64,000 nt of DNA from Oscillospiraceae bacterium (GTDB lineage Bacteria; Bacillota; Clostridia; Oscillospirales; Oscillospiraceae), in assembly GCA_009777235.1 (NCBI GenBank), contig WRMH01000006.1, forward strand, positions 51,897 to 115,896, given 5' to 3'. Below are positions 15,315 through 54,267 of the stretch, piece after piece. The translations under genes were made by a program, and so were the position numbers. How positions within the stretch are numbered: the first letter of the stretch is position 1; each line of letters begins with the position of its first letter. The notes below the pieces were generated by a model. It saw nothing but the letters and a program-made list of their open reading frames with translations. It did no database searches and was not told the DNA's origin.

Positions 15315-15334
15315 AATATAAGGAGATATAACTT

Positions 15335-16330
15335 ATGGGTAATTTGCTTGTTTGCGGCGGAGCCGGATATATTGGTTCGCATACTCTCGTAGTTTTGCGC
15401 GAGGCGGGCTATAACCCTATTGTCTATGACAATATGTCCGAGGGGCACTTGGCGGCTGTTTCGGGTTTTACCCTTATTGAGGGAGATCTCGCCGATACGG
15501 AACTTTTGCGCGAGACCATATCACGCTTTGATATAGACGGCGTGGTGCATTTTGCGGCCTATGCGCTTGTCGGTGAGAGCATGAAAAACCCCATCAAATA
15601 TTATCAAAACAACGTGGGCGGCACGGCAAGCCTGCTTGAGGCCATGCGTGATACAAATGTGCGGCAAATCGTGTTTTCATCCACCTGCGCAACATATGGC
15701 GAGAATGTGCCCGTTCCTATTACGGAGGACGTGCCGCAAGAGCCGTGCAATCCCTATGGCGAGTCAAAGCTGTTTGTAGAAAAGCTACTGAGCCGCTGTG
15801 ATGCGGCATATGGCATTAAATCTGTTTCCCTGCGTTATTTCAACGCGGCGGGCGCTATGCAAGACGGCAGCATCGGGGAGGCTCATCTGCTCGAAACCCA
15901 TTTGATACCGCTGACGCTAAAGGAAGCTCTCTGCGGCGAAGGCAAGCTCGAGGTGTTTGGGCTTGATTATCCCACGCCGGACGGCAGTTGTATCCGCGAC
16001 TATGTACATGTTTTAGATTTAGCCTCGGCGCACCTGTGCGCGCTGCGGTATTTGGAACGCGGAGGGGATACGCAGTTTATCAATCTCGGCACTGGTGTCG
16101 GCTCGTCCGTGCTTGAGGTCATACAGACAGCGCGAGAGGTGACGGGCCGCGATATTGCTTATACGGCCAGAGAGCGGCGTCCCGGCGACCCACCCGTGCT
16201 TATCGCTTCCGGCAAAAAAGCGCGGCAGCTGCTCGGGTGGACAGCCGAGCGCAGTGATTTGCGCACGATTATCGCCGATGCGTGGTCTTGGCATAAGACA
16301 CACCCCGCCGGATATGGAGATATGTTATGA
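15335..16330 (+). CDS. galE: UDP-glucose 4-epimerase
   Basis: LLVCGGAGYIGSHTLVVLREAGY, FSSTCATYG, NPYGESK, RYFNAAGA. Confidence 0.9.
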   Translation: MGNLLVCGGAGYIGSHTLVVLREAGYNPIVYDNMSEGHLAAVSGFTLIEGDLADTELLRETISRFDIDGVVHFAAYALVGESMKNPIKYYQNNVGGTASLLEAMRDTNVRQIVFSSTCATYGENVPVPITEDVPQEPCNPYGESKLFVEKLLSRCDAAYGIKSVSLRYFNAAGAMQDGSIGEAHLLETHLIPLTLKEALCGEGKLEVFGLDYPTPDGSCIRDYVHVLDLASAHLCALRYLERGGDTQFINLGTGVGSSVLEVIQTAREVTGRDIAYTARERRPGDPPVLIASGKKARQLLGWTAERSDLRTIIADAWSWHKTHPAGYGDML

Positions 16331-16827
16331 TAAAGCTCATAGTCTGTGATGTGGATGGCACTTTGACGGACAGCCTCGTCATTTACAGCGACGGCAATAT
16401 CGAGAGCAAGGCGTTTAGCACTAAGGACGGGTTGATCTTAAAGGTACTGCCTAAGCTCGGTATCAGTGTGGTTTTCTTGACCGGACGCACATCCGAAGCC
16501 GTCTTTCGCCGCGCCGCCGATCTTGGCGCGACGGCAATTTGCGGCATTTCCGATAAGCTGCCGGCACTGCATGAGTTGCTCTCTTCGCGCGGCATTTTGC
16601 CCGAAGAGTGCGCGTATATCGGAGATGATCTAAACGACTATGCCGCCATGACGGTTTGCGGTTTTAAGGGAGCGCCGTCCGACGCGGCAGCGGATGTACG
16701 TCAGTTATGCGATTATGTTTCGCCGTTTAAAGGCGGGTATGGCGCTGTGCGCGACGTCTGCGAGCAGATACTAAAGCGCGACGGGAAGTATGAAGAGTTT
16801 TTACGCTTGTTTACCGGCTCCTTATAG
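16327..16827 (+). CDS. HAD-family KdsC-like phosphatase
   Basis: VCDVDGTLTD, FLTGRTSEAV, YIGDDLNDYAAM; ATGA overlap with galE. Confidence 0.8.
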   Translation: MIKLIVCDVDGTLTDSLVIYSDGNIESKAFSTKDGLILKVLPKLGISVVFLTGRTSEAVFRRAADLGATAICGISDKLPALHELLSSRGILPEECAYIGDDLNDYAAMTVCGFKGAPSDAAADVRQLCDYVSPFKGGYGAVRDVCEQILKRDGKYEEFLRLFTGSL

Positions 16828-17784
16828 CTCCTTATCAACTTGCGCTACTTCGGCGACTTCTTTTATAGAGTACGGCATATCAATTTTTGAGCCGAAATAT
16901 ATGCGGGTGAGCATATCGCTCATCAGCCCGAAAACGAAGAGCAAAAGCCCGACGATAAGAAACGCGATGGCAACCATCGGGTGAAAATTGTTTGTAAGGC
17001 TTTGCCCGGATATAAACAAAATAACTGTCCAAACGCCAAAGAAAGCTCCAATAGTCAATGATAAAATGCCAAAGCTGCCGAGCAGATGAAACGGCCTGAC
17101 GGCGTATTTGTGCCAAAACCATACAGTTATCATGTCGAGCAGACCTTTTATTGAACGCTTCCATGTGTATTTTGTTTTCCCGCTCTTTCGCGGTCTATGG
17201 TTTACAACGATTTCGCCGACCTTAAACCCCTTTATTCTAAGCAGTCCGGGGATAAAGCGGTGCATTTCCCCATATAGGTTAATGTTTTCAAAGCATATTT
17301 TTCGGTACACTTTGAGCGAGCATCCGCTGTCGTGTATATGGTCTCGCACAATGATCCGTCTGAGAAGATTTGCGCAGCGGGATGCGATTTTCTTAAAGAA
17401 ATTGTCTTTTCTGTGTCTGCGCCATCCTGAAACAACATCAAGGTTGTTTTCCTCCAAATATGTGATCAGCTTTGGTATGTCGGCGGGGTCGTTTTGCCCG
17501 TCGCCGTCCATTGTGACGATATATTCATATTTTGACGCCTTGATTCCGGCATCCATTGCGGCGGTCTGCCCAAAATTGCGGCGCAGCCTTATATATTTGA
17601 TAGGCGCGCATTTCGTGAGTAGCACTTCACGCGTGTTGTCGTAAGAGCCGTCGTCCACGAAAATGATTTCAAAACTGTATTTGTTTTGAACGCAAACTTT
17701 GAGGATTTCGTTAAAGAGGGTCTCGATGCTCCCTTGTTCGTTAAACACAGGAACTACTACAGATATTGAAGCTATTTTCCTCAT
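16822..17784 (-). CDS. Glycosyltransferase family 2 with C-terminal TM segments (DPM1/GtrB-like)
   Basis: SVVVPVFNEQGSIETLFNEI, DDGSYDNT, TMDGDGQNDPADIPKL, two C-terminal hydrophobic segments. Confidence 0.87.
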   Translation of the reverse strand: MRKIASISVVVPVFNEQGSIETLFNEILKVCVQNKYSFEIIFVDDGSYDNTREVLLTKCAPIKYIRLRRNFGQTAAMDAGIKASKYEYIVTMDGDGQNDPADIPKLITYLEENNLDVVSGWRRHRKDNFFKKIASRCANLLRRIIVRDHIHDSGCSLKVYRKICFENINLYGEMHRFIPGLLRIKGFKVGEIVVNHRPRKSGKTKYTWKRSIKGLLDMITVWFWHKYAVRPFHLLGSFGILSLTIGAFFGVWTVILFISGQSLTNNFHPMVAIAFLIVGLLLFVFGLMSDMLTRIYFGSKIDMPYSIKEVAEVAQVDKEL

Positions 17785-17932
17785 CTCCCATCAATGATAT
17801 TTTTGTCAATCTTGCGAAACTCTAATATCCAAGCCTTTCCATAGTCTCAAATAGTGCATCTATGGCACGCTCTCGCGCAAAAACTCAAGCCTGAGTTTCA
17901 CATTCATAGCTGTCGCCAATCGCTGAGGAGTT

Positions 17933-18112
17933 TTAGGTGAGGGTTTGAGCGGTTTCTGAGTCTTGACGCACAGTTACCTCAACATTCTCGCGATAGAACT
18001 TTGCAAAAGGATTTCTGACCGTTTTTCCTTCCTTCAACAACGTTTTTAACTCTTCAATGCCTTGCGGAGTATATTCAAAATTCGACATTTCGTGAATATC
18101 TCTTTTTTCCAT
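17933..18112 (-). CDS. Small putative antitoxin downstream of BrnT
   Basis: MEKRDIHEMSNFEYTPQGIEELKTLLKEGKTVRNPFAKFYRENVEVTV; ATG at 18112 preceded by GGAGG, directly after the BrnT stop. Confidence 0.5.
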   Translation of the reverse strand: MEKRDIHEMSNFEYTPQGIEELKTLLKEGKTVRNPFAKFYRENVEVTVRQDSETAQTLT

Positions 18113-18113
18113 T

Positions 18114-18395
18114 TTATTTACCTCCAATGTAATACCCTGCTTCTGCGTTAGTCGGCTTTCTTGCGGAAATAATTCTGATAATCGTGTCACTCTCGCGGTA
18201 ACAATGACAGACTATTAACAGCTTTGACATTTGTGACATCCCTATGATGTAAAATCTATCTTCTGCTCCGGAGTGTTTTTCATCATAGTACAAAACTGCC
18301 TTACTATCTTTGAAAACGGTCATGGCTTCTTCAAAAGATACATTATGCTTTTGAATGTTAATACTATTTTTTGTTTCGTCCCACTCAAACTTCAT
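18114..18395 (-). CDS. brnT: BrnT-family toxin
   Basis: FEWDETKNSINIQKHNVSFEEAMTVF ... RIISARKPTNAE pattern. Confidence 0.85.
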   Translation of the reverse strand: MKFEWDETKNSINIQKHNVSFEEAMTVFKDSKAVLYYDEKHSGAEDRFYIIGMSQMSKLLIVCHCYRESDTIIRIISARKPTNAEAGYYIGGK

Positions 18396-18669
18396 GAAAT
18401 GCGCACCACCCTCATAAATACACTACCACAATATCACACTTACGTCAACTTTATCAAAATCTAAAAAACCGTACTTCAAACGCATAGGCATTAAGTGTGG
18501 GTAAGATAAAAAATCATGAAACATATTCAAGTCGGCGAAGGCGATATATTTGACGTTGGGTCAAAATTGATATGCCGTATTCCCTAAAAGAGGTTGTTTT
18601 GCACGAGGGCGATAGCGAGGAATCAGTTAACGAGAAGCCGTGGAAATTGGTAGGGATTTTCAGTAAAAT

Positions 18670-20712
18670 TTACTTGCCATATAAAATGGTACGACTCTCA
18701 AGACCTTCGAATACTTTCGTGTAGTTACCATTTAAAAAATCAAGCATCAAAATGTCCTTTTCACTACCCAAGTATACAGCTCTTAAGTAACATACATTAT
18801 CATACTGTAAAATGTTTGTATATGAAATTACAGTATTCGGGGGAGTTTGTTTTCCTTCTGACCGGAAAAGAACAGGGTCTGCAGCGGATGATGTCACAGC
18901 TATAGTTGACGGTGGGCTAACCCCTCGCTTTAAGAAGTAATATTCAAGCCAAAATTCAGGATTCCCGTCCAAAATGACTAATGTCTTATTGTCATCAAAA
19001 CTTTCAGTAAAAATTACATAATCAGCAACTTCCCGATATGGTTGCCACATATAGATAACGGTGTTAATTGCTGATCTGTATGTAGAATTTGCGATAGCCA
19101 CAATAATCAAAAGAAAGATAGCCATTCTTTTGATAAAGCTGAAATTATGAGTTCTTAATTTAATAAAGTCGATAACAAAGGATGTCGCAAAAGAGGTAAG
19201 CAATAATGCGTGAGGAATAAGACCAACATAAAAGCGAGAAGCAAACAAAGATTGTGAGGAAGCAATATTTGAGTAGACAAACATTACTAAGATAACCCCA
19301 AAAGGGCAAAAGAACGTAATCAACATGAAAATCAAAATATGATTGAATTTTGCTTTTCGTAGGTTCTTTATTAGAAGAGGAACAATAAGTATAGTGCATA
19401 TAGCAGTTAAGACGGCAATATGCTTATGATCCGAAAACAAATAATAAAACCTATTAAGTAATTGTGCATAGCTTGGCGAGCCAAATGTGAAATGAAGTTC
19501 GTCGAATTTTACATGCATGAGAACAGCCACAAACCAAGGGATAATCGCAGCAATTGCGATGATATATGAAGAAATACATTTTATATGCACTTTTCTTTTT
19601 ATACATAAAAATAAATCACAAAACCCGTAAAACACAAGTATTATTGCGCCAAACCAATGACTGTAGAGCAGTAAAATCATCGAAATCGCATAGCCGATTA
19701 TATTGCCTATTGATTCCTTTTCCAGGCGCTTTAGATAAAATAACATTGTCATAGCGGAAAAACAAAAATAAAAGGCATATGGCCGCAATTGCCAGCCGCA
19801 TTGAAACATGAGAACCCCGGAGGAAGCTGACGCTAAACATAAGACAATAAACCCAAATCTTTCCCCCATAAGTCTTTTTGCAGTAAAGTAGAGAAAAATA
19901 ATTCCAATAGCTACAAAAGGAATGGATAACAGCGATCGAAGATACCCTTCCCCATATGGCACAAGAGGGTAAATAATTCTCAGCGCATAGTAATATAGGG
20001 GCATATTATATCCGTCTTCAAGTAACTGCCGTGTAATCTCAGGTAATGACTTATTTGCAACTCTCCCAATTGTCCAATTAAGTTCGTCTCCCCAAAAAGA
20101 CTGCGCGTTTGAATAACTTAGCATAACTCCCACCATTACGCAAAGCAAAGTAAATCCGATGATTTTATATGTTAATGTGTTGCTTTCTTTTTTACGTGAA
20201 ATAGATCGCTCGGGCAAATTATCTGATACAAACTTGATAAAGTCGGGGATAGTTAAGACAACTACGCAAATAAATAAAATAGCAATCACAAAGCAAAGCG
20301 TCAAACTTGTCCATATAAGAATATTTAAGTGCGAAGAGGATAGAGGTATAGCATCATAAACAGTCTTTACATCAACAGGAAAATCGCCGCCATTTACAAC
20401 ATCAGAAAACCATACGATATATACTTCCCTTGTAAGTAGAAACCCAATCAAGATTGATACAAGAAAACTATATATAAGTCGCTTTTTTGTAATAGCGGAA
20501 GCAAAAACAGATGATACATCTATCTTTATAAACAGCAAAACGAGCGCTGCGGATAATGCGAGATAAGTCACCATCAATGAAAGGAGCTTGTCTTCAACCA
20601 TAAGAACTGCAAGAGCGAGAAAGACAAGGGCTGATATAAAGAGCAAAACGCACGCAATCCTCCGTTTGTTGTTTATAAAATTCGACAGTAACTTAACTTC
20701 AATCTTTAGCAT
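18670..20712 (-). CDS. Multi-TM glycosyltransferase, GT39/ArnT-like
   Basis: FWGDELNWTIGR acidic motif in a many-TM protein, QLRPYAFYFCFSAM. Confidence 0.65.
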   Translation of the reverse strand: MLKIEVKLLSNFINNKRRIACVLLFISALVFLALAVLMVEDKLLSLMVTYLALSAALVLLFIKIDVSSVFASAITKKRLIYSFLVSILIGFLLTREVYIVWFSDVVNGGDFPVDVKTVYDAIPLSSSHLNILIWTSLTLCFVIAILFICVVVLTIPDFIKFVSDNLPERSISRKKESNTLTYKIIGFTLLCVMVGVMLSYSNAQSFWGDELNWTIGRVANKSLPEITRQLLEDGYNMPLYYYALRIIYPLVPYGEGYLRSLLSIPFVAIGIIFLYFTAKRLMGERFGFIVLCLASASSGVLMFQCGWQLRPYAFYFCFSAMTMLFYLKRLEKESIGNIIGYAISMILLLYSHWFGAIILVFYGFCDLFLCIKRKVHIKCISSYIIAIAAIIPWFVAVLMHVKFDELHFTFGSPSYAQLLNRFYYLFSDHKHIAVLTAICTILIVPLLIKNLRKAKFNHILIFMLITFFCPFGVILVMFVYSNIASSQSLFASRFYVGLIPHALLLTSFATSFVIDFIKLRTHNFSFIKRMAIFLLIIVAIANSTYRSAINTVIYMWQPYREVADYVIFTESFDDNKTLVILDGNPEFWLEYYFLKRGVSPPSTIAVTSSAADPVLFRSEGKQTPPNTVISYTNILQYDNVCYLRAVYLGSEKDILMLDFLNGNYTKVFEGLESRTILYGK

Positions 20713-27223: not shown

Positions 27224-28735
27224 TTATTCAACCACTTCCCAACGACCACCCCTGGCAGCGCCAATACGACGAAGAGTTCCCGCCGTCTGCATTTCTTTCA
27301 TTTCGCGTGAGATCGTGCGTTTAGATTTTCCGGTCACGATTACGAGTTCATCCAATGTGATATGTGGCTTATTTCTTATTGAATCAAGTATGACTGCATT
27401 GCTTTTCTTAAGTTCATTGCCAATATCGTTGCCATCGTTGCCATTATCGTTGCCATTATCGTTGCCATTATCGTTGCCATTTGGCAATGATGTATCCTCT
27501 GCATCATCAATGCCACTAAGAAACCCAATATCGGGAGAATCACCGGTCGAACCCAGCGCCCCTATTCCTTTGAGTGGCAAAATGGTTTTAAAAACGTCGC
27601 CCTCAAGCAGTTCCGGTTCGCTACCCGAATAAATTCTTGCATACTTATAAAGGTTGCGCACACCGGAGCCGAGCTTGTCAGCGCGACCAATGTTTAAGAA
27701 AAACCGTGCTATAATCGGATTTTTTGGGTCGGGGGTGAAATTGCTTGGGTCAATGCGACCATGCTTATTTGAGCGGCTCCAGTTTTCAGCATATATATAA
27801 TCGCTTTCAATTACGATTTTTGCAGGAAAGCTTTTTGAATACTCTCGATGAACAAGAATGTTGCTGACAAGCTCCCTTGCTATCCACGATCTGACGCTGA
27901 CGCGCTGATTGTCTACGAGAAAGAATCTGTCCAATGTGTGCTTGGCTATAAACTCCATAAGTTTGTCGTATGCTTCTATTAAGTTAGTTCCTACTAACAG
28001 GCGGTCATCATAGCGGTCAATATTCTTTCGGCGCACAAGCGCGTCGGTTTCATAACCGGGGGCGCAAGAACGGATGACATCATCTTTGCAAAAAAGGAGA
28101 ATTCCGGCAAGATTAATGCCCTTTTTACCGGTACGCCAATCTTCATCATATAGACCGGCACTCTTCATAAGCTCCATCACGGACATATCTTTCCACGGAT
28201 GATCCCGGTTCTCACTAAATGCCATCCTCTGCGCCCGCTCAACAAGGTCGAGGCGCAGTTCATTTTCTGTGACATATGGGAATATTTCACGTTCCGTATA
28301 TGCCGCTGATTTCCGCCCATAGAGGTCAGCGACAAGATTTGTGGATTTCGTTATATCAACATCAGCATCCCCTACTCGATCAAAAATCTTGTTTGAGCAA
28401 AGCTGCACTTGAGAACTTGCAGGAACATACACATATAAAACAAGCCTTCCGTCAATCTCAATCTCTTCCGGTTCGAGCAACAACGGCGGTGATATTTTTT
28501 GCGGATTGCTGAGCATACTTACGAAATTCTTTTTCATGTCTCGCGCAACGAGAGAATCAACGCCTATAATCTCGCCGTTATCATTTACGCCAAGTAGCAT
28601 ATGTCCGCCATAACGATTGGAAAATGAACACACGGTTTCATAAACGCTGCTACTCAGTTCGCTAACACATTTTTTATACTCGACGATCAATCCCTCGCCC
28701 TCGTTGAGCAGTTTTTTTATGTTGTCAGGAGTCAT
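27224..28735 (-). CDS. AlbA_2 (Schlafen-like) ATP-binding/regulatory protein with repeat linker and C-terminal HTH
   Basis: EYKKCVSELSSSVYETVCSFSNRYGGHMLLGVNDNGEIIG; ELVSNILVHREYSKSFPAKIVIESDYIYAENWSRSNKHG; linker NGNDNGNDNGNDNGNDGNDIGN. ATG at 28735 preceded by GGAGG. Confidence 0.85.
   Translation of the reverse strand: MTPDNIKKLLNEGEGLIVEYKKCVSELSSSVYETVCSFSNRYGGHMLLGVNDNGEIIGVDSLVARDMKKNFVSMLSNPQKISPPLLLEPEEIEIDGRLVLYVYVPASSQVQLCSNKIFDRVGDADVDITKSTNLVADLYGRKSAAYTEREIFPYVTENELRLDLVERAQRMAFSENRDHPWKDMSVMELMKSAGLYDEDWRTGKKGINLAGILLFCKDDVIRSCAPGYETDALVRRKNIDRYDDRLLVGTNLIEAYDKLMEFIAKHTLDRFFLVDNQRVSVRSWIARELVSNILVHREYSKSFPAKIVIESDYIYAENWSRSNKHGRIDPSNFTPDPKNPIIARFFLNIGRADKLGSGVRNLYKYARIYSGSEPELLEGDVFKTILPLKGIGALGSTGDSPDIGFLSGIDDAEDTSLPNGNDNGNDNGNDNGNDGNDIGNELKKSNAVILDSIRNKPHITLDELVIVTGKSKRTISREMKEMQTAGTLRRIGAARGGRWEVVE
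27424..27480. repeat. In-frame 12-bp minisatellite (TATCGTTGCCAT)n inside the AlbA_2 gene
   Basis: Units read as 12, 9, 12, 12, 12 bp. Confidence 0.92.
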
Positions 28736-28845
28736 TAATTTTGCACCTCCGTTATTCAATATGGATAGGTTTTCATTATAAGGGTGAATAAAAGAATCAG
28801 CAAGCTAACGAGAAATTTTTCAATGCAGCTTTCGACAACTCTGTT

Positions 28846-29952
28846 TTATTTGAAAATATGAGAAGATTTGGATTTTCTGACTAAAATTCCAGTTTCTGTC
28901 ATATATTGCGACTGAAAAGATTTATGGTTCTTAAACCACTTATCTACTATTTCCTTAACAGTATTATTGCACTCAGGTTTAACTATTTTACTTGTGTTTG
29001 AATTCAAATAGTGAATAACGCTTTTATACACAATATCTTGATTCCAACCAGGTCCTATGGTAACTGACTTAATCGGATATGGCAGAGGTCTTGTCTTGTC
29101 AATCGGTTGCCAAGCGATTTTCATATAAGGAGTCAGAACTCCATCCAAATTAAGATGATGAATAGTATTATGGCAAGCGTAGTTCTTGTTTTTATCATCC
29201 AATAGTAATAAATGCTTCGGTCTAAAAATGAGGCGATACTCTTTTTCCTCTTCGTGTTCAGAACCTTTTATCAATGGTGCATTTTCAAAACACTTCTTAA
29301 TTATCCCGTTAATTTCATTTGCGGGTTTTTGCTTCATATTTACCAAGCTTTCCAAGACATCCTCAACTGCTTTTTTTACGATTTTTTTTACATCGTCTTT
29401 ACCATACTCTACTTTGTGGATTTCATTTCCGAATGAACGAACTTCTGCGTAGTTCTTTTCATTTTTACTGTGTCTGTATAAGTTTGCACTATCTATGTCA
29501 TTTTTTTTGCAATACTTTGAAAATTTTTCTGGCATACTCTTGTCAACAAATTCATATCCCTCAAAATCAAACTCAATTGATACACCTGTTTCTTTCGCAT
29601 ACATTTCCCATTGTGAAAGCGACTCTTTATTCTTTGTAAAGCAAACAAAATATATCTCAGGGCTGCTCTTATGTCTTTTGCTATCAAAATAGCTATATTG
29701 CATGAAGTTAGTACTATACGGTTTTGATGGAATTTCAGAAATGATTTTTTGAATGACATTTTGAAACTCAGGCTTTATTGAAGGTTGCTCCGATAGCAAT
29801 TTAGGCAATTTCTTTAACTCTCTATATATTTTTGAATAACCGTTATCAAATTCCTGATGGTCATTAGAATATTTAACATGAAACGCATAAAACTGATGAT
29901 CATCTATTATTTTTTGTAACACATCAACTTTGGTAAAGTGATATAAATTCAT
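28846..29952 (-). CDS. DUF2971-family protein
   Basis: LYHFTKVDVLQKIIDDHQFYAFHVKYSNDHQEF; FVCFTKNKESLSQWEMYAKETGVSIEFDF. ATGA overlap with the upstream gene. Confidence 0.8.
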   Translation of the reverse strand: MNLYHFTKVDVLQKIIDDHQFYAFHVKYSNDHQEFDNGYSKIYRELKKLPKLLSEQPSIKPEFQNVIQKIISEIPSKPYSTNFMQYSYFDSKRHKSSPEIYFVCFTKNKESLSQWEMYAKETGVSIEFDFEGYEFVDKSMPEKFSKYCKKNDIDSANLYRHSKNEKNYAEVRSFGNEIHKVEYGKDDVKKIVKKAVEDVLESLVNMKQKPANEINGIIKKCFENAPLIKGSEHEEEKEYRLIFRPKHLLLLDDKNKNYACHNTIHHLNLDGVLTPYMKIAWQPIDKTRPLPYPIKSVTIGPGWNQDIVYKSVIHYLNSNTSKIVKPECNNTVKEIVDKWFKNHKSFQSQYMTETGILVRKSKSSHIFK

Positions 29953-30479
29953 TTCACAACCCTACCTATTAAAAAATCATAAAAATCAGAACCTGCCGCC
30001 GCATCTTCAAAACTATCCGGTCTTAAGTAAAATGCAAACCGTGGCGTTAATGCCTCAAAACATGCGGTATCACAACAACTTGAGTAAAATACAATATCAG
30101 AATAGTTTAATAAGCCACTATCAACCATTTCTTTTGCAAGCTTACGTGAGTTAAATTTTTCATATTGCTCTCCACTATCATTAAGAATTTCCAGGTCCAT
30201 AGCAACTCTCACCCCCTCTTTTAAGGAATCTATTAATTCAAAAAGATTATCCTTAAATTCCTCAAAGTTGACAGCATCTTTATACTCATAAAAGTTGATT
30301 CGCGAATTTTTTCCATCGCTTTCCTTCAATTTAGTATAATCATTTTCGTTAAATGCCAAGCCTGGACTTGGGTAAACAAAAAGCTTTTCTAGCATATTGT
30401 CACCCTCTATTCTATTTGTTATTAATTCTACAATCAATTCAATAGCATTAAAAGAATCTTCAATCAATATAAGTTTCAA
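29949..30479 (-). CDS. Receiver (REC)-like protein
   Basis: Likely TTG start at 30479 after AAGGAG: MKLILIEDSFNAIELIVELITNR (acidic pair), RVAMDLEIL (candidate phospho-Asp), IVFYSS, FYLRPDSF. Confidence 0.55.
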   Translation of the reverse strand: MKLILIEDSFNAIELIVELITNRIEGDNMLEKLFVYPSPGLAFNENDYTKLKESDGKNSRINFYEYKDAVNFEEFKDNLFELIDSLKEGVRVAMDLEILNDSGEQYEKFNSRKLAKEMVDSGLLNYSDIVFYSSCCDTACFEALTPRFAFYLRPDSFEDAAAGSDFYDFLIGRVVK

Positions 30480-30492
30480 GTTAAACACTCCT

Positions 30493-33400
30493 TCATTTCC
30501 AATCAACAAGGATTGGTAGTTTAAACTTTATTTTGTTCTTATTATCTTCCTCGTAAAGGTCAAAAGCTATTACTGGTTCAGCAGAGTTTATTTTATAACT
30601 TTCTATACCACTTAGTATTTCCTCGCAATACCAATTTGACGCATAAAGAGTGATCCCGTCATTTTGCCTCTTTAATTCCCTTTCATTTATATTTTCTAAT
30701 AGGTATTTCTTTATATCTGCTTCTATTTGCTTTTTCACAGCATCATTCTTAAAATCGTAATTTACCTCATTTTCAATCGTCAAATAGTATAATACGCCTT
30801 TTCTTTTCTTATTCGTTCGATTCGACGCATGATAATGATTGACAGTAAAGCTAACCTCTTTGTCTCCTATTTTCATTATTTCAAATGAAACTTTGACTGG
30901 ACTTCTTTCTTTCCGATATTTGATTGCATTTTGCACTAATGATAGGAGTATACATAGTGCATCCGACTCTCCCACTTCTTTCTCTGGTAAAACATATAAT
31001 ACATCTAAATTTCCATAAACATCAATTTTTTGCATCTCAACTCTATCGGGATGTGCGAAATGTGCTGTTTTATTAAGTATCTCAATATTTAACATCACCC
31101 AATTACTATGCAGTTTCGTTGAAGTCAACCTAATTGATTCACGTTCTATATCGCCTGACATTCGCTTTACGAGCGCACTGTGGTACTTTTCGCTTATAAA
31201 GGAGTCAGACATAAACCTTATCGCAGCCCCTATACATCTTTCCAGATTGGTGTCTATACTACTCGGCAGTTTTTGCCGCAAGTACGCTGTTACAAACTCT
31301 CTTCTATACTTAGAATCACTATGTGACGCATTCTTCAAATGTGACAAGGCATCAGCTCTTCTTTTCTCGGCTATTTTTCCTGAGATCAGGTTGTTTGTAA
31401 AGTCGCTTAAGAGTTTAGAAACTATAAGTTTCCTGAAAATCATAATGTTCTTAATGGCATACTTAAATTGTATACCTTCCAGTTTTGAATCTTCTATTAA
31501 GAGGTAGATTTTACGGTTTTCTTTTTCAGAAAGAGCAATATCATATTTTAGCATTGCGGTTCTCTCGTTTATACAATATGTTTCCAGAACCATTTCACGC
31601 TCAAGCATTTCCTTCATTTTTTCGTCTATATTGTATGCGCTCATAACTTCATTATCCTGTTTGCTGCAGGCTAACGGAATAAATGAATTTTTATTATCGG
31701 GCAGGTCGGACAGAATAACACAAACTGTTTTCGAATTCGTCGCAAATCTTACAAGAGTCGTAAGTACGTTGTAAAACTTATCAATGTCGCCGTTGCTAAT
31801 TGAACTTTTGCCGGTTAACAGATGAAATATAGCTATAACAGCAATAAGTTTCAATTCATATCCTTCCTTGAAATTATTTACATTTATTCTATTTGCAACA
31901 CTATCTTTCTTAACATCAATTGCGTCAGTAAATACCAATGTTTTGACAAGATTCTCATAGTAATACTTATTGAGGGTCGTTACAAATTTATCGTTTATTG
32001 TACAAACTTTTTCATCGTCTTTTTTACAAACTTTGTCTTTGAACCAAGTGCTATCCCTTTTTGTATTAGTTCCCAGTTCGTTAACTATTTCTTCAACCTC
32101 ATCGCCTAAGTCATTATTCAAATCCTTTATACTATCTATCAACAGCCTGTTATTCTCGAAATATGCGTTCTCCTTAAAACTACCGAAAACTAAATCCGCT
32201 ACTTTTTCATTGAATTTGCCGGATTGTAAATTCTTTTCAATATCATTGCTGTACTCTTCCCCAAATAGAAGAAGATATTCTAAAAACACACATTTTGATT
32301 CATCACTACTCAAACAGGTTATTCGCTTTATTGCCGATAAATACTCCTTTGCAAATTTTTCTCGTTTAAGCTGTCGCAATTTTTCCTTTTCGGGTTCGTC
32401 AAGATTTTTGTCAATGCCTTCATCAATGCTTTTACCTGTGGTTTTACATATTGCTTCATCTATGTTTGCATCAATACTCTTTAGCGCCGACTCATGGTAA
32501 GCGTGTATTCGTCTTATGTTTTCTTTTCGAATGATAAACGAAGAACCCAAATCGGCAAGCCTTTTTATTAACGTTATCAATAAGCAGTACTTGATTTCGT
32601 ATCCATTTAAGCCATCAATGATTTTATATATTTCCTTGTACTCAGAATCAGACTCGGTCGCTTTGTTTTTCTTATCATCTTCTTCTGCTATTAAATAATC
32701 TAAAATTCTGATCATTATTTCAAAGATGGCTTCTTTATAACTCTTTGAATAGCTAAAGAAAGGACGAGAGAGAACTTTTATATATGATATAAGGTATTCT
32801 GCATTATGATACCCATCATGCAGTTTAGTATGTGCGTCTACGCACATGGCGGAAGGCGACCCTTCAAGTAATCCAATCATCATATTAAAAGCAGTTTCTT
32901 TTTCGTTTGCAGCTCGCTCCTTGCTCTGCAGCTCACAGTTTGCTATATGAGAGCAAATCATCCTTCTGAACGCCCGCGCTTTTTTCTCTTTGTCATTTTT
33001 CTTAATGGAAGTAGATTCATTTATTTCAAGAACACCATGTTTATCGATTTTCTTAATACAATAGTCGTATAGAACATTAGTTGAAGAATACTCGCTTAAT
33101 ACTGTGAAATTACTTACGAATTTGCATAAAACACATGCGTCTTCATGGTTTCGCATAGAAGATATATTTAACTCGACAAAGGCGTTAAACATATTCAAAT
33201 CTTTGATATAGTTCTCCTTTGTCGCAAGCGAACATCTGTTTATTAAGAGGGTGATGCTCTTAAAAATCTCTATGCTTACGAATTCACTGGTGAAAGCTTT
33301 ATCCGGGAAAATCGAAGCCAGTATGCTCTTTACTCGCATAAAAGAGCTTCCTGATACGATGGTGTCGTCAACAAAGTGAAATCTTATATTGGACTTTCTT

Positions 33401-36400
33401 TCCGCACTCTCTAAGTTTTCATATAAAGCACATAGATTGCTGTATTTTGTCTTGATATTCTCCCTAAACTCTTTTTCTGCGTCAATAAACAGGATTAGAG
33501 ACACATTACTAAATACCTGCCGCTCAAATTCCTTTACAAAAGCAGAGTTAGAAAAGTGCCTCGGTGCAACAATGATGTCGTATGTGAGTCTATCGTCGCT
33601 TGTAGTGTTGATTTTTCCCGAAAGCCCTTTTAACCAATTCGTTACTTCATCCTTTTTTTCAAGCATAAGTTCTTCTGTTTGAAAATAAAAGCTGAAGTGA
33701 TTGCCTTTTCTCTCAATATGCCTATATATCAAGTAATTCTCTAACATCCTTATTCTTCCAATGTTATCTATTGACATAAGTTTGGCGATGTTAGGATTTT
33801 CGTTCGCATTCTCTTTGTCCGGTTTGAGTCCTATTTTTTGCATGGGTACAACAGATGTTTTATCTGTCTCAATCAGGGGCTCTTCTTTATAATATTCCAT
33901 GTTGGGATTTGGCGGAAAGCACTTTTCACAGATAAGGGGATTATACCAAGTGGTATTGACATCTATAAAAAAACGTACAGTTTTCTTCCCATATTCAATT
34001 AAGTCCGTTTCAACTTCTTTCTTGTATGGTTTAATCTTAATCTTAGTCCAAAATCTTTTTTCATCTTCGGATAAAATGAGCCCTCCTTTACTGTCCCTAC
34101 CTAAAACTACCGCATAATTAGCAATTATTTTTGGTTCTGCATTTTTAACCGATTTCGCATTTTTCAGATATTTCGCTAGAGCAGATATCACTTTATTGTG
34201 GGTGGTTAATGTCGAGTTGATGGGAATCACTACTACATACAAGGGGTTTTCTGTGATAGAAATATCGGTTATATGCTTGAAATTAAATTTGTCTGTTAGG
34301 TTTTGATCATTTGCAGACTTTTTATTATCACTATAGATGATGTATCTGATATGTGGCTTATCGGCTTTCTCTGTCATTACCAGCTGACCATCGGGTAAAC
34401 TATCAAAGCCATCGGATTCGATGAACTTTTTTAGTTTCACCACTATCTCGTATAAAAGCATATCTGAGTATGTTTCGTATCCAATTAAAACTATATCTTT
34501 GCCTGTAGCTATTTTTTTTGTACTAATAATATCATATATTTCCTTTGCGAGGATGTATGAGAAATGCGAAACATAATAACTATTGTGAAACAGAAGCTCC
34601 GCTTCATAAAAACTGTCAATGTGGATTTTTGACCCGATTCTCATATGCGTAGGGCTGAGTTTGCATCCGAACGGAGTCTTTTGCAAGTCTGCTTCCAGAA
34701 CGTTTTTAACATTCCTCTCAAACGGAACCACGCCTTGCTCAATTTTCTGATACCTCTGCAATGAAAAAGGGGTCAGCTCTAATGGTTTTATTTTCTCTTC
34801 AGTTTTTTCTCCATTTTGCCTTGAATGTGTGATTCTTTTGTCCAACATCTGTATTATCGTTTTTACACACCTTGGATTGGTGCCTCGTGAGAAAGCTATT
34901 TTTTCAGAATAGGAAAGGAAAGCCGCTAAACTATTACCTGTTATGATAAACTCTTCCTCAAAATCTCTCCCGTACAGATATATTTGCACATTGTGCATAA
35001 ACTCATTCTTGCCTTCTTTGTTGTAAAAAACAGCAAAAATCCTGACAATCTCCAAAATAAAATTATCATCACAGTTGAATATCGCAACATCAAGTTTTTT
35101 ATTTGCATACTTGACCAAGAACGAAATTATAGCCTTTGCAAGGAACTCAATACGCCTGCTTGGAAGATCGTTCGCATCATAGTAAAAAATCGTATTGCTC
35201 TCATCTGATCTATTTTTAACAATATGTTCAGCAAAGCCTTTGCTCATGTTGTCTATCAACTTTTCTTTACGCTCTTGTAAAGAATGGATGTCTTCAGTGT
35301 TTATCTCACTATAATAACTTTTACATGTTTTTTCGTCAAATGGGAATCCTTTTTCTGTAGTATATGGGTATGTTAAATTATCGTTGAAGTTTACGCTCCC
35401 ACTTAGTGCTGTATAATTATGTACAGCAGCATCTACCTCTTTAAATGGTATCAGAATAGTATACTGCGTTCCCGGTATTTTCTTTACGTTGCTATAGCGT
35501 TCAGTGTTTGAATAATAACCCGAAGGTTCGATCATGCAGTCTTTTGAACTTCTTGCTATAAAACAGCCATCAGAGTTAGTAATCAGCGAATCAAACAGTT
35601 GCAACCCATAATGATGCACCACATTTGTCGCTATAGAGTTATATAGTACCCAAGATTTCTTTTCATCCTCATTTGGATCAAAGAATGTTCTTATTTGGGG
35701 ATTGGCAAAACCCTCTAATACACTATCATATATTTCCTTGCTATCGTCTGTAGAGGCTTGTTGCCTTTCTGCGATTTTTGATATGAATTTCTGAGGCAGG
35801 CTTTCATGTGAGTAATCAATAATATGCGCTTCCAGATAGAAGTTATGCTTACCTTTTCGGTCGTGTAGGTAGTTTACGAATCTATCCTCCAATTTCTTAA
35901 TCGTGTCAACCTTTTCAGTTGAGTATACCCTAAAGCATAAGTAACCATTCATATTCTCAGAATGATTCATTGCGTTTTCCATCAGTTGAAGTAAGCCGTC
36001 AGCCATATCTCTTGCGTCGAAAATCAATTTCCTTAAATATTCTTCACTATTGCTCACTTTTTTTGTTACTTTATAAGAATAGTATTCATACAGGCACATG
36101 ATGTAATATGCCAGCAAAGGCATATTTTTGATTTGATTAAAGAAGTTTCCGCCCTGATAATACTTGCTTCTTTCTTTAAGCGCTTCTGAATTAATCTTAT
36201 TTTTTCTTATATTACTAAAGCAAAAGAGGTTTTTCATAAATCGTAGAAGCTGAGTATCCCTACCCTCCTGAGTTTCTTTTTTCTGTCTTTCTATTTCGCT
36301 CTCAAAATTCATAATATCTGCCGACTGTATGCTAGGCTTGCTTCTTTGGTTTTTTTCTCTTACCAGAAATAACTCCATAGGCTGCGACCAGTAATCAACC

Positions 36401-36999
36401 GTGTCGACTTTTTCTTTTTCAGACTCGTCGATTGTACTGTATTCACTAGTAATTTCAATTAAGGGCGACAGGCTTTGCAAAATAGTGATGTTTTTTTTAT
36501 GCGATAACTGTTGGATTTTTGTACCCTTTCCGTCAGCATAATATCCGTAGTAGCGACCTGGTTTTTTTTGAAGTTCATACATTAAAAATAATCCTGCTGA
36601 AAAGTACAGGTCATTTGCTTTTGTCTTATCTTTAGCTTTTAAAAGCAGATAGCAATTGCGTTTATTCTGCAGAATTAATGCGAAGTATTGAAGGTTTACT
36701 ATATCATTTTCATTTGAATCGTTTGTAACAGAAAAAACGTATTCTACATTGTTCCGCTCGGCATAAATCTTATTAACAGGGACATCAGTTAGTTTATTAA
36801 TGCTGTTCTCATTAATTGAGCCAGCTATGTCTTTAAGAAAAGTTTCATCTACCTTCGCACTTCCGGTTTCAACATATGCGTCTATACCACTACCAAGAAT
36901 AAAATCAGCCTTGCTCTTTGTGTCTTCAATTTGCTCAATAATCTCCAAACAACGAGCATAACTGTCTTGATTGTTGTTTAACGTAAAAACCACTACCAT
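30493..36999 (-). CDS. 2168-aa multidomain protein: GHKL ATPase-like, PRTase-like, GAF/DHp-like, second GHKL-like
   Basis: GHKL-1: LLQLMENAMNHSENMNGYLCFRV ... IIDYS ... VVHHYGLQLFDSLITNSDGCFIARSS ... GTQYTILIPF. PRTase-like: VDDTIVSGSSFMRVKSIL. C-terminal: ADALSHLKNASHSDS and LSLVQNAIKYRKERSPVKVSFEI. Confidence 0.7.
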   Translation of the reverse strand: MVVVFTLNNNQDSYARCLEIIEQIEDTKSKADFILGSGIDAYVETGSAKVDETFLKDIAGSINENSINKLTDVPVNKIYAERNNVEYVFSVTNDSNENDIVNLQYFALILQNKRNCYLLLKAKDKTKANDLYFSAGLFLMYELQKKPGRYYGYYADGKGTKIQQLSHKKNITILQSLSPLIEITSEYSTIDESEKEKVDTVDYWSQPMELFLVREKNQRSKPSIQSADIMNFESEIERQKKETQEGRDTQLLRFMKNLFCFSNIRKNKINSEALKERSKYYQGGNFFNQIKNMPLLAYYIMCLYEYYSYKVTKKVSNSEEYLRKLIFDARDMADGLLQLMENAMNHSENMNGYLCFRVYSTEKVDTIKKLEDRFVNYLHDRKGKHNFYLEAHIIDYSHESLPQKFISKIAERQQASTDDSKEIYDSVLEGFANPQIRTFFDPNEDEKKSWVLYNSIATNVVHHYGLQLFDSLITNSDGCFIARSSKDCMIEPSGYYSNTERYSNVKKIPGTQYTILIPFKEVDAAVHNYTALSGSVNFNDNLTYPYTTEKGFPFDEKTCKSYYSEINTEDIHSLQERKEKLIDNMSKGFAEHIVKNRSDESNTIFYYDANDLPSRRIEFLAKAIISFLVKYANKKLDVAIFNCDDNFILEIVRIFAVFYNKEGKNEFMHNVQIYLYGRDFEEEFIITGNSLAAFLSYSEKIAFSRGTNPRCVKTIIQMLDKRITHSRQNGEKTEEKIKPLELTPFSLQRYQKIEQGVVPFERNVKNVLEADLQKTPFGCKLSPTHMRIGSKIHIDSFYEAELLFHNSYYVSHFSYILAKEIYDIISTKKIATGKDIVLIGYETYSDMLLYEIVVKLKKFIESDGFDSLPDGQLVMTEKADKPHIRYIIYSDNKKSANDQNLTDKFNFKHITDISITENPLYVVVIPINSTLTTHNKVISALAKYLKNAKSVKNAEPKIIANYAVVLGRDSKGGLILSEDEKRFWTKIKIKPYKKEVETDLIEYGKKTVRFFIDVNTTWYNPLICEKCFPPNPNMEYYKEEPLIETDKTSVVPMQKIGLKPDKENANENPNIAKLMSIDNIGRIRMLENYLIYRHIERKGNHFSFYFQTEELMLEKKDEVTNWLKGLSGKINTTSDDRLTYDIIVAPRHFSNSAFVKEFERQVFSNVSLILFIDAEKEFRENIKTKYSNLCALYENLESAERKSNIRFHFVDDTIVSGSSFMRVKSILASIFPDKAFTSEFVSIEIFKSITLLINRCSLATKENYIKDLNMFNAFVELNISSMRNHEDACVLCKFVSNFTVLSEYSSTNVLYDYCIKKIDKHGVLEINESTSIKKNDKEKKARAFRRMICSHIANCELQSKERAANEKETAFNMMIGLLEGSPSAMCVDAHTKLHDGYHNAEYLISYIKVLSRPFFSYSKSYKEAIFEIMIRILDYLIAEEDDKKNKATESDSEYKEIYKIIDGLNGYEIKYCLLITLIKRLADLGSSFIIRKENIRRIHAYHESALKSIDANIDEAICKTTGKSIDEGIDKNLDEPEKEKLRQLKREKFAKEYLSAIKRITCLSSDESKCVFLEYLLLFGEEYSNDIEKNLQSGKFNEKVADLVFGSFKENAYFENNRLLIDSIKDLNNDLGDEVEEIVNELGTNTKRDSTWFKDKVCKKDDEKVCTINDKFVTTLNKYYYENLVKTLVFTDAIDVKKDSVANRINVNNFKEGYELKLIAVIAIFHLLTGKSSISNGDIDKFYNVLTTLVRFATNSKTVCVILSDLPDNKNSFIPLACSKQDNEVMSAYNIDEKMKEMLEREMVLETYCINERTAMLKYDIALSEKENRKIYLLIEDSKLEGIQFKYAIKNIMIFRKLIVSKLLSDFTNNLISGKIAEKRRADALSHLKNASHSDSKYRREFVTAYLRQKLPSSIDTNLERCIGAAIRFMSDSFISEKYHSALVKRMSGDIERESIRLTSTKLHSNWVMLNIEILNKTAHFAHPDRVEMQKIDVYGNLDVLYVLPEKEVGESDALCILLSLVQNAIKYRKERSPVKVSFEIMKIGDKEVSFTVNHYHASNRTNKKRKGVLYYLTIENEVNYDFKNDAVKKQIEADIKKYLLENINERELKRQNDGITLYASNWYCEEILSGIESYKINSAEPVIAFDLYEEDNKNKIKFKLPILVDWK

Positions 37000-48981: not shown

Positions 48982-49718
48982 TCTTGTTTGTTATTCATGG
49001 ATGATTTTCCTTTCAAATAGTATTTTGGGGACTGCAAACATTGTCTATCGACTTGCGAACCCGCATGAATACGGGCTTTGTGTTATGCCCCTTATTACTA
49101 TTCATCCCAGAATGAAAAGGTACGCTGTTTAGTACAGCGTGAACCCTCTGCGTTGCAGTGCTTTTCGCAAACAAAAATGCGAACATTGAACACGGTGGTG
49201 GGGGTAGTGCTTTGCTGCTATTCATTGCAAATTGCTTTAATAAAATGCGTAAAATTATGTGTAAAATGTGCAGAAAATTACTTTTATAAGCCATAAACGC
49301 GCTATTGCCAATTCGCGCCCTAAGCGTGTATAATAAGTATGTAGAGAGACACCGCCAATCAAAGGAAGGAGCGACAAAAATGAGCATAGAGAGAATGCTG
49401 GATAATTTACCAGTATTGTGTACTGCCGATAGACTTACTTACGTAAGCGTAACTTGGAATGAAAATCGGAGCAAGCAAACAAGCCATTTTAGTGATTGAA
49501 AACAGAAGTCAACCGTTACCTTGGTATTTACATTTTGTGAGGGGACTTTCTTTCACGCAAAATGATGCTTCAGAGAAACTGATAATGAGTTTTGAGTTGT
49601 TAAATGGAGAGATTCTTGATTAATGAGTTTTGCCATGTATAGGACATTAGTAGTGTGTGTATTTTCTCCGACAATGGATTGAATTAACTGTATATTTTTG
49701 AATTGGAAGAGACATTTT

Positions 49719-50384
49719 ATGGGGATAAGCAGAAAAAAAAGAAACAGGAGGAAAAATGCCAATAAAGGTGTACCAAATATCACTCAAAATCCTCAACATC
49801 ACCAGAATAATCATGATTGTGATGTATTAAAAAATACTAATACTATCGATTTGGTTTTAACCCACATTTCTGGAATATTGGAAAATAGGCGAGAACAAAT
49901 CGCAGAAAGATCAACAGTTAGTTTGGCGGCTGCTTCAGGTTTATTTGTTCTGATTATCAGTTTTATAACCGGGGCGTTCAACCAAGAGCGTGAGTTTTAT
50001 ATAATTGTGATCATATGCTTAATTATATCTTTATTATTAACGGCTATTTCGATTATTACATCACTTGACTTGATAAAGAGGATTTCTAGAAAGAAAAATC
50101 AGAGAAAAATACCTGAGAAAAACATTTTGTTTTTCGGCTGGATTGCCACCCAAACAGAAGATGCATTATACAAGCAGTATTCAAAATTATGCAATGACGA
50201 TTATAGAAAAGCGCAAATTCGACAATCAATATCGTTATCAAAAAACTTGCAATACCGATATAACCAATTAAAGAAGACTTACGTATTTTTTGTTCTTGGG
50301 TTGATTACATACATTATTTCTATTACTTTGAATATACTGTATGAACACGATGTTTTTTCTCAACTTGCTCAGTGGATTAAATGA
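49719..50384 (+). CDS. Pycsar-effector-like TM protein (PycTM/DUF5706-like)
   Basis: ILENRREQIAERSTVSLAAASGLFVLIISF; EDALYKQYSKLCNDDYRKAQIRQSISLSKNLQYRYNQLKKTYVFFVLGL. Confidence 0.55.
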   Translation: MGISRKKRNRRKNANKGVPNITQNPQHHQNNHDCDVLKNTNTIDLVLTHISGILENRREQIAERSTVSLAAASGLFVLIISFITGAFNQEREFYIIVIICLIISLLLTAISIITSLDLIKRISRKKNQRKIPEKNILFFGWIATQTEDALYKQYSKLCNDDYRKAQIRQSISLSKNLQYRYNQLKKTYVFFVLGLITYIISITLNILYEHDVFSQLAQWIK

Positions 50385-50421
50385 ATTGTGCAATGACACA
50401 ATAAATATTTGGAGGTTAATT

Positions 50422-51144
50422 ATGGAAGTAGTTTTATTGGGAACAGGGTCGATTCTTACAACAAGTCTTAGTTCTTGCGCTGTTTTGGATTCCAGAATAA
50501 TGCTTGATTGTGGCAATGGTGCTGTAAAGGCATTGCGTCGCAATAATATCGATCCAAAGAGTGTTGATATTTGCCTAATAACGCATTTTCACGCTGATCA
50601 TTTTTTTGATATACCCTTTATGCTCTTGGAACAGGGACTTCGGCAACTGCGTGAAAATGAGTTCATCATAATTGGGCCTAATGACACTAAGCACCGTATA
50701 ATAAATCTCTTTAATTTAGCTTACCCGGAAGATTGGGATAAAATCCAATCCCAATCTAAACTCAAAGTAATTGAAATATCAGAACCACGGCAAGTATTTC
50801 AAGTGTATGGTTATGATATTACAAGCGTAAAAGTAGAGCATGCAAACTATGATGCCTATGGCTATATAGTCTCCGACGGTCAATTCTGTGCGGGGTTTAC
50901 CGGAGATGCTGTGCTATGCGAAGGCGTCATCGACATTACTGAAAGTAGCAATATTGTTTTCGCAGATATGAGCTTTGAAAACCCCTCAAAAGGTCATATG
51001 GGATTAAGTGATATTGAAATTCTTATGAATGAATATGGTCAAAATAAACGCATAATTCCGACGCATATGACAGACAATGTTAGAAATGTATTTTCACAAA
51101 AGCATTTCCCTGCACCAGAGGATGGTGCAAAATATTCGTTATAA
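50422..51144 (+). CDS. MBL-fold metallohydrolase (RNase Z-like)
   Basis: MEVVLLGTGS; ITHFHADHFFD; GFTGDAV; IIPTHMTD; GGAGG upstream. Confidence 0.88.
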   Translation: MEVVLLGTGSILTTSLSSCAVLDSRIMLDCGNGAVKALRRNNIDPKSVDICLITHFHADHFFDIPFMLLEQGLRQLRENEFIIIGPNDTKHRIINLFNLAYPEDWDKIQSQSKLKVIEISEPRQVFQVYGYDITSVKVEHANYDAYGYIVSDGQFCAGFTGDAVLCEGVIDITESSNIVFADMSFENPSKGHMGLSDIEILMNEYGQNKRIIPTHMTDNVRNVFSQKHFPAPEDGAKYSL

Positions 51145-51191
51145 GTTCGTAATTAGAATTATTCTACACATAAGGAAAAGGTGATGCGAAG

Positions 51192-52106
51192 ATGGTTATA
51201 ATTGAGAGTCGATTGCCAAAAATTTTTGGAGTAGTTGTTGATGGATTTAGCGTTGATATAGCTAATCGATTGAAAAAATGGGTAGTGCCTTTTTGGAACA
51301 CTGACTGTTTAAGCGATTACATTAATATACTTACGATTGTTCCAGTATCTACAGGAAATGAGGTGGGTTATAGAGTTGGTGTATGCTATATAGACTCTAA
51401 CAATTCTGTTGACAAAATAGTTAGCCTGATATTGCACCATACAAGAATAATATTCAAGCTGTGTGCTATGCAATATGGTTATGTAAATTTACATTCAGCG
51501 TGTATTTCTTACAACGATATAGGAATATTGATTGATGCACCACGAAATAATGGAAAAACGACGGTTTTACTCGAAGCACTTTCAACAGGTGATTTTTTAT
51601 TGATTGCTAATGACCAAGTTATGCTAAATCACAATAACATGATTTCATATGGTTATCCTGCTACGGTAGGACTAAGGACAAGCTCTCTTTCCCATAAATT
51701 GCAAAGCAAAGTTATTCGGTATGAAAATGATCCATATGTTAATGGTAAAAAGCCAATAGTACATATTGTCGATATTGCTGATGAATTTGATGCAACTATC
51801 TGTCCTCAAGCTCAGATCAAGGTACTTGTTAACTATTCAAAGGCGAATAATTATAATGAATTACATGTCAAAACCAGTTTTGTGAACGGTCGCGAAAAAC
51901 TCAAGTCCATGGAATTTCCACTTACAACGGCATACAGAAGTGAAGTTGTCGAGTATTATTTGGGTCGGGTGAGTGAAGTTGTTCATCCTATCTTTTGCAA
52001 AGAAAATCACGATTACACGTTACTATTGATTGATGTTTCTTGCGGAATAAAACAAATTCCCAATTTATTGGAAAAGATAAAAACGTCTATAATGGAGTTA
52101 AGTTAA
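51192..52106 (+). CDS. HprK/PEPCK-like P-loop kinase domain protein
   Basis: GYVNLHSACISYNDIGILIDAPRNNGKTTVLLEAL; FLLIANDQVML. Confidence 0.65.
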   Translation: MVIIESRLPKIFGVVVDGFSVDIANRLKKWVVPFWNTDCLSDYINILTIVPVSTGNEVGYRVGVCYIDSNNSVDKIVSLILHHTRIIFKLCAMQYGYVNLHSACISYNDIGILIDAPRNNGKTTVLLEALSTGDFLLIANDQVMLNHNNMISYGYPATVGLRTSSLSHKLQSKVIRYENDPYVNGKKPIVHIVDIADEFDATICPQAQIKVLVNYSKANNYNELHVKTSFVNGREKLKSMEFPLTTAYRSEVVEYYLGRVSEVVHPIFCKENHDYTLLLIDVSCGIKQIPNLLEKIKTSIMELS

Positions 52107-52107
52107 T

Positions 52108-53818: not shown

Positions 53819-54267
53819 GTGGGGGATTGTTTTATACTCGCGGTAGCAAATCATTTAATAATGCACCCACTCAATCGAAAACACACCCATTGCTAGCAAT
53901 GTTCTGCTCCGGATTGCGCCAGTAATCGCATTTGTCCTCACAGTATTTACATACAGATAAGCTCCACGGCGGGCATTGGCGGTCATCCGTATTTGTTTAC
54001 AAATACAAGTTCAAAAGTGTCTGCATTATCCGATAAAGATTCATTTGGGTTTATCCTTTGTGTCAATCGTGAAGATTTTTCCGCAATATTTCAATCTTCA
54101 TCCATGACTACTAACCTCTCATCAGTCAGTTTTGATAAGCTTGGTTTATAGTGTTGTGGGCTTGTTTGTAGGTATGCTGCGGGTTGCCCCTTACATTCGT
54201 TGAGATTTTGTATATCTACATGATTGTTTTGATTAGTTACATTATTATTGCACCAATGTTAACGTAA

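Follow-up and report, generated by a model that had tools for sequence, protein, structure and literature searches.

What would a bacterium use a giant protein for that appears to join a GHKL ATPase-type domain, two phosphoribosyltransferase (PRTase)-type domains and a histidine-kinase-like region in a single chain? The question is raised by a 64,000-nucleotide stretch of an Oscillospiraceae bacterium genome (GenBank assembly GCA_009777235.1, contig WRMH01000006.1, positions 51,897 to 115,896; hereafter, the window), in which the gene for such a giant is followed by genes for a receiver-like protein and a DUF2971 protein. A first-pass annotation of this operon had suggested phosphorelay signalling to a PRTase or DUF2971 effector, possibly in anti-phage defence. 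We propose that these three genes form a horizontally mobile conflict system, gated by a histidine-aspartate phosphorelay and most probably serving anti-phage defence through abortive infection, and we put the probability of this reading at about 0.5.

Gene linkage and exchange of the output module

The three genes are minus-strand open reading frames (ORFs) that overlap head to tail, by 17 bp between the giant and the receiver-like protein and by 4 bp between the receiver-like protein and the DUF2971 protein. They were recovered exactly where the first-pass annotation had placed them, and the motifs it had quoted were all found at or very near their positions. The search for relatives covered a sample of whole genomes and, in a single scan, a genome collection; it yielded 21 further loci: 17 from the collection (L011–L027) and four that belong to a second family (L088–L091). 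The collection scan relied on exact peptide patterns, so its 17 loci are a lower bound. Directly after all 20 giants that bear the kinase region, the window's included, come genes for a receiver-like protein and a DUF2971 protein, which lie within a few dozen bases of the giant gene and often overlap. The linkage of homologs to both partners, on which the earlier proposal depended, is thus found at 20 of 20 kinase-bearing loci and at neither of the two loci whose giant lacks the kinase. In L017 and L022 the giant is split into two adjacent genes. Distances among the giants correlate with those among the DUF2971 proteins (Spearman 0.70) and the receiver-like proteins (0.57), with none of 2000 Mantel permutations as high, a correlation that stems partly from the shared descent of the loci. 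We hold the architecture of the operon and the linkage of its genes with high confidence.

The strongest functional evidence comes from the two loci without the kinase region, L023 and L025, which also lack the receiver-like and DUF2971 genes; they are sisters in the tree and represent one evolutionary event. In L025 (1129–8031) a calcineurin-like metallophosphoesterase is fused after the same linker segment (Metallophos, E = 9e-13), and in L023 (12632–14890) one is encoded by the next gene after the giant (Metallophos, E = 2e-14). This swap points to the GHKL-PRTase-PRTase core as the common part and to the remainder as output, and an all-or-none exchange of modules behind a shared sensor points to DUF2971 as the effector. 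The initial suggestion of a PRTase or DUF2971 effector can be narrowed accordingly: the swap favours DUF2971 (or the metallophosphoesterase), and the PRTases look like shared sensor machinery. Further downstream in L023, an ORF at 16454–17386 resembles, by eye, an endonuclease/exonuclease/phosphatase.

Domains of the giant and its partner proteins

Evidence for the PRTase fold comes from structure prediction. An AlphaFold2 (AF2) model of giant residues 312–1500, made from an 18-sequence alignment (mean predicted local distance difference test score, pLDDT, 75.5), matched HP1257 (4paw) in a Foldseek search of the PDB (E = 1.1e-4, TM-score up to 0.58 on the target), with further matches to orotate and hypoxanthine PRTases (4rv4, 4ohc and HGPRTs) at a probability of about 1.00. 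These matches support a predicted PRTase superfamily fold in the giant. The Foldseek output did not include aligned residues, and the tandem arrangement is read from two motif sets and from the succession of predicted strands and helices, by which the giant carries two consecutive PRTase-type domains, the first degenerate. The first-pass annotation had described a single PRTase interrupted by a large insert; its fold assignment stood, and the split was rejected in favour of two complete sets of landmarks in tandem. HMMER profiles of PRTase1 and PRTase2 gave nothing useful against the PDB, nor did local PRTase profiles, and hhalign comparisons of the PRTase parts with PRTase profiles from the window's own genome, which are shallow, gave no match.

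The two domains differ in their phosphoribosyl pyrophosphate (PRPP) loops. PRTase1 has a GYETYS loop and a PRPP loop, PINSTLTT, that is devoid of the acidic pair, and its conserved residues are H785, F797, E799, Y841, Y844, P926 and T933. PRTase2 combines an IVAPRHFSN loop with a canonical PRPP loop in which V1210 and G1217 are invariant. Its acidic residues are conserved in 21 of 22 members (D1211) and 20 of 22 (the second), the exceptions being the metallophosphoesterase pair: both are present in all 20 kinase-bearing members, and the pair reads N-T in L023 and D-Y in L025. A second CxxC motif of the giant falls at residues 1289–1292 (C1289 and C1292, each 18/18).

On either side of the PRTases, the giant bears GHKL-type features. 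In GHKL1 the conserved residues are Q338 and N342 (N-box), D395, H463, G465 and L466 (HYGL box), and G510 and T511 (GTxY). A family profile search matched an AgrC-type kinase, with GHKL1 in register over the G-box, and hhalign comparison of GHKL1 with HATPase profiles gave E-values of 0.003–0.008 against 0.15–0.4 for controls. The C-terminal kinase-like region consists of a His-bearing helical part and a second, AgrC-like GHKL domain, which aligned in register with an AgrC-type HATPase over the N-box, IxN and G-box (E = 0.013; controls 0.69–0.9). Each hhalign E-value reflects one comparison, and these values lend support without being conclusive. H1893, a candidate phospho-accepting His by sequence, lies upstream of the GHKL catalytic domain, and both it and N2077 are present in all 20 relatives bearing the kinase region. 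The GHKL module and the kinase-like C terminus of the first-pass annotation are therefore upheld, the former by profile alignments and motifs, not by a structure match. HMMER profiles of GHKL1 and the kinase region found nothing useful in the PDB, and local HATPase profiles likewise. N342, G465, G1217, H1893 and N2077 are near-invariant even in relatives at only 17% identity, which places the quoted motifs far from chance. By eye only, residues 1600–1865 look GAF-like. One marginal match, G1079, was rejected as a family member because it is an AgrC-like kinase.

The receiver-like protein of the window has an acidic pair (E17, D18), a candidate phospho-accepting Asp (D105), an S/T strand and a YLRP motif. 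A REC-like pattern (an acidic pair behind the first strand, an Asp behind a central one and a Ser/Thr behind a later one) occurred in 15 of 20 members against 10 of 10,000 shuffles (0.1%), a comparison that is descriptive only, as the pattern was written after the alignment had been viewed. On visual reading of the 16 members aligned first, 15 retain the Asp and all have the Ser/Thr; the Lys is often Arg. An hhalign comparison with REC profiles from the same genome, again shallow, gave no match. The receiver-like partner proposed earlier is supported, and we consider the protein likely, though not proven, to be homologous to REC.

The third gene was correctly named: its product scores 23.1 bits against Pfam DUF2971 (PF11185; cut-off 22), and 15 of 16 family members match. 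DUF2971 is the sole Pfam family shared across these proteins, which have no REC or PNP match. Fourteen residues are invariant in 20 of 20 members, including N30, D31, E34, Q114, W115, Y118, E236, E238 and R240, a set that resembles that of an enzyme. The model of the window's protein is of moderate confidence (mean pLDDT 73). An ADP-ribosyltransferase of the DarT/HYD1 type was considered from weak sequence hints (Tox-ART-HYD1, E = 0.06; DarT1 8baq, E = 0.79) and is unsupported, with no ADP-ribosyltransferase among the listed Foldseek matches in the PDB. In the literature searched, DUF2971 occurs in a single paper, on the reannotation of a genome.

The giant and the receiver-like protein have no Pfam match, and none of the three core proteins has an NCBIfam match. 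Neither the three core proteins nor the C-terminal parts of 17 giants had a meaningful match among the models of PADLOC-DB 2.0.0, in line with the first-pass annotation, which named no system of this composition. No promoter stood out in the region upstream of the operon.

Table 1 The operon and the regions of its giant protein (positions are those of the window)
Feature	Giant residues	Position	Strand	Basis or remark
Giant gene (2168 aa)		30493..36999	minus	ORF; homologs aligned over length; domain order N-region, GHKL1, mid domain, PRTase1, PRTase2, helical region, linker, histidine kinase (HK)
Receiver-like protein (186 aa)		29949..30509	minus	REC-type motifs
DUF2971 protein (368 aa), probable effector		28846..29952	minus	Pfam DUF2971 above cut-off
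N-terminal region	1-315	36055..36999	minus	In most relatives, poorly conserved
GHKL1, ATPase-type domain (QLMENAMNHS, IIDYS, HYGLQL, GTQYTILIP)	318-530	35410..36048	minus	
Mid domain	560-750	34750..35322	minus	Invariant E618, K622, G688
PRTase1, degenerate PRPP loop PINSTLTT	~756-1010	33970..34734	minus	Motifs, AF2 model, Foldseek
CxxCFP knuckle	1024-1029	33913..33930	minus	C1024 and C1027 17/18
PRTase2	~1062-1320	33040..33816	minus	Canonical PRPP loop VDDTIVSGSSF at 33340-33381
Helical region	1330-1600	32200..33012	minus	K1408, R1412 invariant; AF2 model reaches residue 1500
Linker region	1600-1865	31405..32202	minus	Module swap falls after linker
C-terminal histidine-kinase-like region	1866-2168	30496..31404	minus	H1893 codon 31321-31323; N-box QNAIKY followed by IEN and a G-box

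Distribution and genomic surroundings

The operon is rare, occurring in 1–2% of related genomes: the family was found in 4 of 297 and 4 of 396 genomes of the order (the window included), and the second family of the same class gave 7 full-length matches in 397 genomes. Viral contigs, phages and plasmids yielded no relatives. The GC content of the operon is 34.4%, against 43.8–44.5% in its flanks, and recombinases or transposases are present at several loci. In the tree, which is a quick one with metagenome bins and some long branches, Oscillospiraceae, Lachnospiraceae and Spirochaetes are mixed: two copies from spirochaetes fall within clostridial branches, and the window groups with Lachnospiraceae copies, not with the other two Oscillospiraceae copies. 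The operon has been transferred horizontally between lineages. A locus labelled 'Bacteroides' (L019, JAMPEQ010000002.1) was rejected as a sign of phylum-wide spread because its contig is apparently the same as one of G147, from the window's own order, and the 'Gastranaerophilales' label of L015 was not relied on.

Some of the loci lie among defence genes. In a Pseudoflavonifractor strain (L022, the same locus as L010) the operon is embedded in a BREX locus: BrxA, BrxB, BrxC and PglX flank it on one side, and an AbiH/SIR2-like gene together with a large PDC-M54A-like gene flanks it on the other. Elsewhere, L015 has a nearby KAP NTPase that matches PDC-S20, L017 a GmrSD_N-AlbA protein, and L019 both an FRG protein and an ion-channel-like gene. 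The window's own downstream neighbour (27224–28759, minus strand), which lies next to the operon and has the GC content of the flank, encodes a Schlafen/AlbA_2 protein with RecG-type HATPase_c_4 and HTH matches, an architecture shared with the Schlafen-kinase-wHTH proteins that are reported to be widely linked to BREX (PMC12839542). The association with defence genes is suggestive only.

Three further features were noted around these loci. A 12-bp repeat at 27413–27481 gives the Schlafen/AlbA_2 protein a GNDNGNDN linker. In L018 the genes after the operon (14662–19535) read by eye as a radical SAM enzyme, a Nudix hydrolase, a thymidylate synthase and a dCMP deaminase, possibly a nucleotide-linked cluster. 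A second AT-rich stretch of the window (49000–54500, ~34% GC) holds five plus-strand ORFs of 228–309 aa.

Proposed function, alternatives and related systems

We suggest that the giant acts as both sensor and kinase, with the N-terminal GHKL ATPase and the tandem PRTases as its sensing part. Given the PRTase folds, PRTase2 could bind PRPP or a nucleotide; PRTase1, which has lost the acidic pair and kept a phosphate-binding-like loop, may be a binding domain only. Infection would change the ligand, upon which the kinase-like region would autophosphorylate at H1893 and hand the phosphate to D105 of the receiver-like protein, which would then release or activate a presumably toxic DUF2971 effector. 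In the sister lineage a metallophosphoesterase, fused or adjacent, replaces kinase, receiver and DUF2971 behind the same sensor. Such a histidine-aspartate relay, with phosphotransfer as its putative currency, we regard as probable, and a role in defence as somewhat better than an even bet. The broader idea of a new class of immune sensor, in which a GHKL ATPase and tandem PRTases monitor PRPP or nucleotides and drive either a relay-controlled DUF2971 toxin or a metallophosphoesterase directly, is tentative.

Several observations weigh against a relay-gated defence system. The receiver-like proteins of the window and of four other loci fail the strict REC-like pattern, His replaces the Asp in L015, and REC profiles, in hidden Markov model searches and as local profiles, did not match the receiver-like protein. 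The kinase N-box, QNAIKY in the window, has Ser for Asn in many relatives (SAIK), and this frequent replacement may mean weak catalysis or a pseudokinase. For DUF2971 we know of no activity, and the model of the protein had no Foldseek match among PDB or viral structures (best PDB E = 0.97). Most loci, the window among them, have mainly polysaccharide or housekeeping genes as neighbours. These surroundings would be functional if the operon served non-defensive stress or metabolic signalling, in which the PRTases would sense either PRPP or the status of purines and pyrimidines, and DUF2971 would be a metabolic or envelope regulator tuned by the relay. Many loci (window, L011, L016, L018, L025 and L090) lie, by eye, in sugar-nucleotide/polysaccharide clusters, and PRTase folds mostly belong to housekeeping enzymes. 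However, the operon is rare and patchy, AT-rich relative to its flanks, transferred between lineages and swappable in its output module, and polysaccharide loci are common hypervariable insertion sites, so we judge this explanation unlikely.

The degenerate look of the receiver-like and kinase-like parts admits another explanation, a conflict system that signals by binding rather than phosphotransfer, in which GHKL1 and the PRTases, on binding ATP or a nucleotide, would cause a conformational release of the effector. The Ser in the N-box of many relatives and the failure of profiles to detect REC speak for it, and the metallophosphoesterase version, which has no relay, implies a direct route from sensor to output. 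It fits poorly with a candidate phospho-accepting His that is invariant in 20 of 20 members, with a receiver Asp and Ser/Thr that are largely kept, and with the joint gain and loss of kinase and receiver, and we consider it unlikely. The PRTase pair might also itself be the effector, consuming PRPP or ribosylating nucleotides or proteins, with DUF2971 and the receiver as accessory or immunity proteins. Retention of the PRTase2 acidic pair in every kinase-bearing member would suit such an enzyme, but the core of the giant stays in place when kinase, receiver and DUF2971 are swapped for a metallophosphoesterase, which is how sensors usually behave, and the acidic pair is degenerate in both metallophosphoesterase members, so that catalysis is not universal; this seems very improbable. 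If the relay-gated defence reading is true, it would add a phosphorelay-gated conflict system with a sensor built on PRTase folds, and DUF2971 would for the first time have a role, that of an effector. The exchange, in nature, of a relay-coupled output for a fused phosphoesterase would then offer a direct genetic way into what the sensor detects.

Parts of the system have recognisable counterparts. The GHKL domains of AgrC/LytS-type kinases (HATPase_c_5, PF14501) are in register with GHKL1 and the C-terminal region of the giant, which differs in having two GHKL domains in one chain and no recognised transmembrane-sensor architecture; the partner of those kinases is a LytTR regulator, whereas that of the giant is a stand-alone receiver-like protein. 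With orotate and purine PRTases the giant shares the fold and the PRPP loop of PRTase2, but its pair is in tandem within a signalling giant, with a degenerate first copy, CxxC knuckles and no sequence-profile match.

Detocs (DtcABC), a defensive two-component system (PMC11249213; general knowledge), likewise consists of three genes, which code for a sensor of the histidine-kinase type, a receiver and an effector protein of its own, with a probable abortive output. DtcA has N-terminal TPR repeats, whereas the giant has a GHKL domain in its N-terminal part and no Pfam TPR match, although a divergent repeat could be missed. The Detocs effector is a REC fused to PNP or another domain, whereas the DUF2971 proteins lack REC and PNP by Pfam, and the stand-alone Detocs receiver has a candidate counterpart here with receiver motifs and no REC profile match. 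The sensor here is a GHKL and tandem-PRTase giant, and the output is DUF2971 or a metallophosphoesterase. As the defining Detocs features that were tested are absent, we do not file the operon under Detocs; it is set apart by description, and its control logic is similar. No such system was described in the literature searched. In the account of NTP-dependent conflict systems (PMC7159879), no histidine kinase is found among the vWA-associated effectors, and neither PRTase nor DUF2971 is named; those systems likewise have a large conserved sensor core and exchangeable outputs, including a calcineurin-type phosphoesterase. Set beside them, the operon looks like an undescribed relay-gated conflict system with an unusual sensor.

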